Made by a program: the position numbers and the translations under genes. This document shows positions 29,937 through 32,240 of a stretch of DNA of 33,237 bases, in pieces. The first letter of the stretch is position 1, and each line of letters starts with the position of its first letter. The stretch comes from Alphaproteobacteria bacterium (GTDB lineage Bacteria > Pseudomonadota > Alphaproteobacteria > JAJFIK01): positions 1-33,237 of the forward strand of contig JANQLJ010000082.1 of NCBI GenBank assembly GCA_028280665.1. The letters run 5' to 3'. The notes below the pieces were generated by a model. It searched no databases. It worked only from the letters and a program-made list of their open reading frames with translations, and was not told the origin of the DNA.

Positions 29937-29940
29937 TCCC

Positions 29941-30396
29941 ATGCGGACGTTTGACCTATCCCCTCTTTATCGCTCGACCGTAGGCTTTGACCGGCTGTTC
30001 AATTTGATTGACGGTGGCGGCGCCTTCGATGCGGGCTCCAGCTATCCGCCCTACAACATCGAACGGCTGGATGAAAACACCTACGAAATCAGTATGGCCG
30101 TGGCCGGGTTCGGTGAGGACGACCTTGAAATTGAGATCAAGGAAAACGCGCTCACCATCAGCGGCGGGCGCGGCGAAGAAACCCGCGACCGGACATTCCT
30201 GCATCAAGGCATTGCGACGCGCGCCTTTGAACGCCGCTTCCAGCTTGCCGATCATGTGGAAGTGAAAGGTGCCAAACTTGAGAACGGCCTTTTGACCGTC
30301 GCGCTTGAAAGGGTGATCCCCGAAGCCTTGAAACCACGCCGGATCGAGATTTCCGGCGGCGGCGGCACCAAGACCATCGAAAACAAAGCCGCGTAA
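29941..30396 (+). CDS. Small heat shock protein, Hsp20/IbpA class A
   Basis: MRTFDLSPLYRSTVGFDRLFNLID...YPPYNIERLDENTYEISMAVAGFGEDDLEIEIKENALTISG; alpha-crystallin domain. Confidence 0.96.
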   Translation: MRTFDLSPLYRSTVGFDRLFNLIDGGGAFDAGSSYPPYNIERLDENTYEISMAVAGFGEDDLEIEIKENALTISGGRGEETRDRTFLHQGIATRAFERRFQLADHVEVKGAKLENGLLTVALERVIPEALKPRRIEISGGGGTKTIENKAA

Positions 30397-30445: not shown

Positions 30446-30964
30446 CTAGCGGAGCGCGCCTGGAACTTTGTTTCCGGGCGCGCTTTCGCGTGCGGCGATC
30501 AGTGGACCCACCTGTGCCCGGACCCGGCGCAGCTTTTGATCCGCAACCGCATAGCCTTGTGCGAGAAAACAATCGACCAGAAGCCGCTGTTGCTTCTTGC
30601 CGGTGAACACGCTGGGAAGCGAGACCTGCATCGCGCCGCAGCCCAGGCGCTGGGCCTGGCGGTCCATCTCCTCGATCATCTTCTCAAAGAGCGGTTCGGG
30701 ATCAAGCGCCCCCGCCGCAATGAAGTTGTCGACGCTGAACACGTTCTCATGATCGAGGCTCGGTTGCGTGGCCCAAGTGTAAAGGGCGACAAGGCAGTCC
30801 TTGCCGAGGGAGGCAACGGTGGTGCCCCGTCCTCTGCCGTAACGATCAATGCTTGCCAGATAGGCGCGCCACCGGGCGAGATCCACCTCCGGCTTCATCA
30901 AATGCACCAGAATGTAGGCCCGCTCATGTTCGCACGGGCGCAGCGGATGAATATCGATGATCAC
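30446..30964 (-). CDS. Protein of unknown function, possibly GNAT-like
   Basis: 172-aa ORF with GTG start, SD AGGAGG at 30974-30979 (9-nt spacer); MIIDIHPLRPCEHERAYILVHLMKPEVDLARWRAYLASIDRYG; family call is tentative. Confidence 0.65.
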   Translation of the reverse strand: MIIDIHPLRPCEHERAYILVHLMKPEVDLARWRAYLASIDRYGRGRGTTVASLGKDCLVALYTWATQPSLDHENVFSVDNFIAAGALDPEPLFEKMIEEMDRQAQRLGCGAMQVSLPSVFTGKKQQRLLVDCFLAQGYAVADQKLRRVRAQVGPLIAARESAPGNKVPGALR

Positions 30965-31014: not shown

Positions 31015-31028
31015 TTGATCTAGGTCAC
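31015..31028. promoter_or_regulatory. FNR/FixK-type box, imperfect
   Basis: TTGAT-CTAG-GTCAC; 8 of 10 conserved positions of TTGAT-N4-ATCAA. Confidence 0.5.
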
Positions 31029-31039
31029 CCGCGGATTTC

Positions 31040-31053
31040 TTGATCGACATCAA
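31040..31053. promoter_or_regulatory. FNR/FixK-type box, perfect
   Basis: TTGAT-CGAC-ATCAA; 10 of 10 conserved positions. Confidence 0.7.
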
Positions 31054-31187
31054 GGCCTTGCTTGTACAGGCGTGAGAGATTGATTGCGGTTGCCCGGCGC
31101 CCAAGCATCGCCGGGACAAAAGGCCGTTCACGGAAAATTCCGGGTCCGGTCCAAGCCTTATAGATTCGCGCCCGGCATTTGCATCGG

Positions 31188-31237
31188 AGCCCTTGAGCGG
31201 TCTAGATTTGCGCGCAAATTCAGACCGCACGAGGGCT
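31188..31237. repeat. 50-nt near-perfect inverted repeat/hairpin abutting the HSL-hydrolase start codon
   Basis: AGCCCT-tga-GCGGTCT-ag-ATTTGCGCGCAAAT-tc-AGACCGC-acg-AGGGCT, followed by TTTTATG; includes SD GAGG. Confidence 0.85.
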
Positions 31238-31241
31238 TTTT

Positions 31242-32240
31242 ATGCCGGGACTAAGAGAGTGGGTGCTGGCGTTTGTTCTTCGCTACCTCCGCAGCCAGCG
31301 CCGCCGTGCGGCCCCCGATCTTGCCTTCACGGTTTGGCGCAAGCAGATTGCCAATGCGGCGCGGCGCGCGGCGAAGCTGCCCAAAGATGCCCGGGTCACG
31401 GAAGTTGACGTCAACGGCGTGCCGGCGGAATGGGTCGAGCGGGGCCTGAGCCGCGCCCACCGGGTGATCCTCTATTTTCACGGCGGGGGATATTGCGGCG
31501 GCTCGCCCGACAGCCACCGCCCCCTGGTTTCCCGGCTTTGCAATACGGCGCACGCGCGCGCGCTTATTCCCGCCTACCGGATTGCGCCGGAATACCCCTT
31601 CCCCGCCGCCTTCGAAGACGCCCTTGTCTGTTATCGCTGGCTGCTGGCAAGCGGCATCGACCCGGACGGCATCGCCATAGCCGGAGATTCCGCTGGCGGC
31701 GGGCTTGCGCTCGCCACCGCCATGGCCGTCCGAGACGAGGGCCTGGCTCTCCCTGGGTGCATTGTCTTGATCTCCCCTTGGACGGACCTTGCCCTTTCCG
31801 GCCGTTCCTTGCTCCGGGCCACGCGGCTCGATCCGTTTTTAGATATTCGCGACCTTGCGGGCTTTGCGCATCAATACCTGGATGGAAACTCCCCCACCGA
31901 CCCGCACGCATCGCCGCTCTATGGTGAGTTTCATAGTCTTCCTTCGACGCTTATCCATGTGGGCTCCAATGAAGTTCTGAAAGACGATGCGGTGAGAACT
32001 GCGAAGCTTGCCGAGGAAGCAGGGGTCGATGTGAGCGTCGAGGTCTGGGGCGATCAATACCACGTCTTCCAGGCCTTGCCGGTAAAGGCGGCGGAAGCCT
32101 CGATTGCGCGTCTGGGCTCGTTTATCCGTTCGCGCACGGTTCTTTCGGCGGTGGCGCGCCCCACGGTTCCTGCCGCCGGGAATGAAGGCGCGCCTACTTT
32201 GGAAAACCCGCAAACACCGAGCGGAAGCCGTCCGGGCTAA
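31242..32240 (+). CDS. Alpha/beta hydrolase fold-3 (HSL-family esterase-like)
   Basis: YFHGGGYCGGSPDSHR (HGGG oxyanion motif), IAGDSAGGGLALATA, YRIAPEYPFPAAFEDALVCYRWL. Confidence 0.93.
   Translation: MPGLREWVLAFVLRYLRSQRRRAAPDLAFTVWRKQIANAARRAAKLPKDARVTEVDVNGVPAEWVERGLSRAHRVILYFHGGGYCGGSPDSHRPLVSRLCNTAHARALIPAYRIAPEYPFPAAFEDALVCYRWLLASGIDPDGIAIAGDSAGGGLALATAMAVRDEGLALPGCIVLISPWTDLALSGRSLLRATRLDPFLDIRDLAGFAHQYLDGNSPTDPHASPLYGEFHSLPSTLIHVGSNEVLKDDAVRTAKLAEEAGVDVSVEVWGDQYHVFQALPVKAAEASIARLGSFIRSRTVLSAVARPTVPAAGNEGAPTLENPQTPSGSRPG

Follow-up and report, generated by a model that had tools for sequence, protein, structure and literature searches.

A near-perfect 50-nt palindrome lies directly in front of the start codon of a gene for an HSL-type hydrolase and contains its probable Shine-Dalgarno (SD) sequence. 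The window, i.e. the whole stretch of DNA that was analysed, comprises 33,237 nucleotides of an alphaproteobacterial genome. The palindrome is beyond chance, and as a hairpin it is single-copy and lineage-specific. Our tentative preference, held with less than even confidence, is that it constitutes a lineage-specific 5'-leader hairpin of the hydrolase gene, which acts as a fixed brake in cis. If this RNA reading is right, the locus is a compact case in which a long leader hairpin permanently silences translation; the hairpin does not open a new class.

Geometry of the palindrome and start of the hydrolase gene

The palindrome reads AGCCCTTGAGCGGTCTAGATTTGCG CGCAAATTCAGACCGCACGAGGGCT on the + strand and is followed by TTTT and the ATG. 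Its arms (31188-31212 and 31213-31237) abut each other. Watson-Crick pairs are formed at 21 of the 25 positions; the number rises to 23 when the G-U pairs of the + strand RNA, T31194/G31231 and G31205/T31220, are counted. The sole mismatches in the stem are A31196/A31229 and A31204/C31221, and G31195-C31230 is a normal pair. Outwards, the fold can be extended by pairing of CCCGGCAT with ATGCCGGG. A T run flanks the stem only at its 3' end, towards the hydrolase. The coordinates of all features are compiled in Table 1.

Table 1. Features of the hydrolase leader region and their coordinates in the window
Feature	Position	Strand	Basis or remark
Candidate promoter P1 (weaker): TTCCGG 31138-31143, spacer 17, TAGATT 31161-31166	31138-31166	+	motif match
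CCCGGCAT	31171-31178	+	can pair with ATGCCGGG at 31242-31249 (start codon and codons 2-3)
Candidate promoter P2: TTGCAT 31179-31184, spacer 18, TAGATT 31203-31208	31179-31208	+	best upstream match
50-nt near-perfect palindrome/hairpin, loop 0	31188-31237	+	23/25 pairs as + strand RNA
Probable SD, GAGG	31231-31234	+	in the right arm; 7 nt 5' of ATG
T5 run at the 3' base of the stem	31237-31241	+	sequence; presumed role: terminator-like tail or SD-to-start spacer
HSL-type alpha/beta hydrolase (Abhydrolase_3), 332 aa	31242-32240	+	Pfam/NCBIfam; orthologues align from residue 1

A preliminary description of this DNA, made from the letters only, had reported a 50-nt inverted repeat that holds the SD, has a perfect 14-bp palindromic centre and ends 4 nt before the ATG. 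The sequence agrees with it in all three respects: the repeat is found as described, the perfect core spans 31206-31219, and the stem ends at 31237, the ATG following at 31242. The description had further split the repeat into three blocks separated by symmetric gaps of 2-3 nt. The blocks are present, but the gaps are smaller, as only two positions are true mismatches.

The assignment of the downstream gene to the HSL-type hydrolases is upheld by profile matches. Abhydrolase_3 matches with an E-value of 4.5e-57, and the NCBIfam HSL subfamilies match with scores under their cut-offs. The orthologues from the same-genus genomes G001 and G002 are 72% and 64% identical, respectively, and align from residue 1 with the protein that begins at ATG 31242. 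These orthologues support ATG 31242 as the true start of the hydrolase. A gene start well downstream had been named as a finding that would speak against the proposed element; the N-termini of the orthologues fit ATG 31242 instead. The gene order DctM - hsp20 - hydrolase - pentapeptide protein is common to the source genome, G001 and G002.

Predicted fold of the leader

The + strand RNA of the palindrome folds with a dG of -37.2 kcal/mol (z = -4.8), a value equalled by none of 200 shuffled sequences. The - strand RNA is weaker (-28.7 kcal/mol) because the two departures from symmetry that are G-U pairs favour the + strand. For the stretch from -70 to +12 of the hydrolase leader, the fold has a z-score of -7.3. 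Five simulated genomes of 2.35 Mb each, generated by a Markov process with the same dinucleotide make-up as the source genome, contained no loop-0 palindrome with 21/25 Watson-Crick pairs; this number of pairs was reached once in the five when any loop of up to 10 nt was allowed. The genomic background was a 284-kb sample of stretches of the source genome, in which the runner-up palindrome has 19/25 pairs. In the same sample, the hydrolase leader is the most stable among 194 ORF starts, a rank that is approximate since these starts were picked mechanically.

The preliminary description had proposed that the hairpin occludes the SD, and folding supports this proposal for RNAs that include the left arm. 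The predicted probability of an unpaired SD is at most 0.0025 in RNAs with both arms, and the SD is more than 99.7% paired even if more than 100 nt of leader are added. To free SD and ATG, 15-21 kcal/mol are required in RNAs with both arms. The corresponding cost is 5-11 kcal/mol for an RNA that starts at 31215, which is inside the range of the relatives' leaders (3-11 kcal/mol; for example, 3.0 for G001 and 5.4 for G002). Folding thus makes an occlusion of SD and AUG likely in any RNA that carries both arms.

The likeness to a terminator, also pointed out previously, holds: as in an intrinsic (Rho-independent) terminator or attenuator, a GC-rich stem is followed at once by a U5 run, in line with the intrinsic-terminator criterion of at least five U after such a stem. 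Note that the terminator scan considered loops of 3-8 nt only and did not list this loop-0 hairpin. The element differs from an intrinsic terminator in its much longer stem of 25 positions, which holds the SD and ends 4 nt before the ATG. A terminator of the upstream gene was considered and rejected: the upstream neighbour is divergent, so that there is none to terminate directly.

For a fixed brake, we infer transcript starts, termination and an effect on translation as follows. In transcripts that start upstream of 31188, the left arm would pair with the right arm and bury the SD and the start codon, and the GC-rich stem plus U5 may end part of transcription just before the ATG. In favour of this reading are the fold beyond that of shuffled sequences, the strongest leader among the 194 and the start codon backed by orthologues. 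Against it, the orthologous leaders have no such hairpin, no competing fold would make it conditional, T-rich spacers before start codons are common without termination, and the hairpin would rarely be transcribed as a whole if P2 were the sole promoter.

The preliminary description had called the structure a switch. The MFE and centroid structures of the hairpin RNA are identical, lengthening the RNA leaves the SD within the helix, and no competing fold was seen; therefore, nothing supports a switch. This also makes it very unlikely that the leader is conditional, i.e. an attenuator or riboswitch-like element whose hairpin is opened by a ligand, a protein or a small RNA. A terminator-like stem with U5 right before a start codon would suit such an element, but there is no competing helix and, other than in an attenuator, no alternative antiterminator fold; neither a conserved aptamer nor an Rfam match was found. 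With regard to the neighbouring hsp20 gene, an RNA thermometer was considered as well and rejected, since the stability of the stem is much too high for melting and Rfam reports no match.

Candidate promoters and the operator alternative

The fixed brake presupposes RNAs that contain the left arm, and the two candidate promoters predict opposite RNA contents. The predicted start of P1 is near 31173, which would place the whole hairpin inside the RNA. P2 is predicted to start transcription near 31215, at the palindrome centre, and its message would hold the right arm only. The score of P2 is equalled by 30 of 300 shuffled sequences and is hence not beyond chance. In a free alignment, P2 lies opposite TTGCGT-17-TAGATT of G002.

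If P2 is a real promoter, its RNA would start near the palindrome centre, lack the left arm and be translated; the hairpin would then shield the hydrolase from stray upstream transcription. We regard it as improbable that both parts apply, i.e. that P2 yields translated transcripts beginning at the centre and that transcripts from outside fold and are neither completed nor translated. If true, a chromosomal gene for an ordinary enzyme would make use of a read-through shield known from insertion sequences. In IS10, IS50 and IS200, leader hairpins sequester the ribosome-binding site of the transposase, and in IS10 and IS50 the hairpin forms only in RNA that comes from outside the element. A leader hairpin that sequesters the transposase ribosome-binding site has likewise been described for the tnp 5'-UTR of ISPpu9 (PMC8450116). 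As in these systems, the SD and the start region of the hydrolase message would be enclosed in a 5'-terminal structure; if P2 is used, the leader also shares with IS10 and IS50 that only outside RNA would form the hairpin. It differs in that the gene behind it is a chromosomal hydrolase of an ordinary kind, that neither a transposase nor a known antisense RNA is present at the site, and that the palindrome is not repeated.

A DNA operator is a somewhat unlikely alternative to the brake. The palindrome would extend from about -27 to +23 around the P2 start, and a dimeric or tetrameric repressor bound to it would block initiation; the RNA fold would then play no part, as the left arm would be missing from the message. 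Repressor operators of the TetR, MarR and GntR type can overlap promoters, and the palindrome resembles them in its dyad, its perfect 14-bp core and its centre near a predicted start. It is consistent with an operator that the best promoter-like match upstream is located inside the palindrome and is set opposite a similar G002 site. Furthermore, the source genome has one intergenic near-copy of the core, ATTTGCACGCAAAT (L144 3767-3780, contig C48), which deviates by one base and could be due to chance. It lies between genes for a cyclopropane synthase (-) and an aminoglycoside 3-N-acetyltransferase-like protein (+), and AGACCGC sits 8 nt beyond it.

Several observations argue against an operator. 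Besides the frequency with which shuffled sequences match the P2 score, the other identical core near-copy falls within a gene, the motif is absent upstream of the hydrolase and the cyclopropane synthase in G001 and G002, and the 32-nt arms do not recur in the source genome. A symmetry of 50 bp exceeds the need of one dimer and distinguishes this candidate site, which comes without an identified regulator or regulon, from TetR/MarR/GntR-type operators. An operator that is conserved or shared by several promoters was thus not found, there being one intergenic core-like site only; a regulon around the 14-mer core was rejected, as its single intergenic near-copy is not conserved. If the RNA reading is right, the locus also warns that a palindrome, a promoter and an SD can be so tightly interlaced that an operator and an RNA element are not distinguishable from the sequence by itself.

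Distribution, possible origin and neighbouring features

A comparable hairpin is absent from the hydrolase leaders of both same-genus genomes and of two orthologues with about 50% identity, so there is no conservation. The z-scores of the leader folds are -0.7 (G001), +0.4 (G002), +1.2 (L036) and +2.3 (L035), versus -7.3 in the source genome. No counterpart was found upstream of the homologues in G001, G002, L034, L035, L036, L007 and L037, where the upstream sequence of L034 (OFTM120) is the same as that of G002 and hence not independent. An alignment of orthologous 5' regions had been suggested as a check for a conserved element; no structure is kept in the orthologues, which argues against one and leaves no homologous copy in which the arms could covary.

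The further copies that the preliminary description had proposed to look for do not exist in the source genome, nor was a second copy of the palindrome found in 96 relatives, in 385 genomes of the class, or in plasmids, phages or IMG/VR. Matches of 16-27 nt elsewhere were rejected as copies, their E-values being at chance level. One match in the class comprises 27 nt (E = 0.003 over the 385 genomes searched, as expected by chance), and one phage match comprises 26 nt (E = 0.4). At gathering scores, no Rfam family matches the palindrome, including the ROSE thermometer; sub-threshold matches were weak ones to eukaryotic microRNA precursors and were rejected as chance. A mobile repeat (MITE or REP-like) was also rejected, given a single copy in the genome and none in relatives.

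The palindrome therefore does not have the appearance of a new regulatory family, but that of a local control element of recent date or of a mutational accident. An accident would mean that it has no function and is either a quasi-palindrome of recent origin, which template switching during replication fork passage produced or perfected, or a mobile-element remnant; it would lie before the gene by coincidence and would not have been lost so far. Both the formation and the repair of hairpin stems by template switching have been reported (PMC8794818). The palindrome shares with template-switch quasi-palindromes (PMC8794818, PMC7202029) that it is an isolated near-perfect inverted repeat in one lineage, a comparison limited by the fact that closer relatives would be needed to trace how it arose. 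Its occurrence in the source genome only among the 385 of the class, the same site without the palindrome in the only two same-genus genomes, and the lack of an Rfam family and of plasmid or phage copies agree with a neutral origin. On the other hand, a cover of 15-21 kcal/mol on the SD would harm a gene in use unless transcription starts inside the palindrome, the T5 run and the position right next to the ATG show more order than an accident would call for, and no flanking mobile-element copies were found. We consider a neutral origin unlikely and retain the fixed leader hairpin as the preferred reading.

An IbpA-like small heat-shock gene (29938-30396, +) is a neighbour of the hydrolase gene in each of the three genomes from this genus; Rfam reports no ROSE thermometer at this gene. 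The divergent gene (30446-30964, -) encodes 172 aa without a Pfam or NCBIfam match. A homologue with 43% identity occupies the same place in G001 and was not found in the G002 stretch. The intergenic region that harbours the palindrome also contains a perfect FNR/FixK-type box, TTGATCGACATCAA (31040-31053), and a partial one, TTGATCTAGGTCA (31015-31027); a partial box, TTGATCTAGATCA, was found in G001. The perfect box precedes the divergent gene by 76 nt, which suggests that this gene is controlled by low oxygen.
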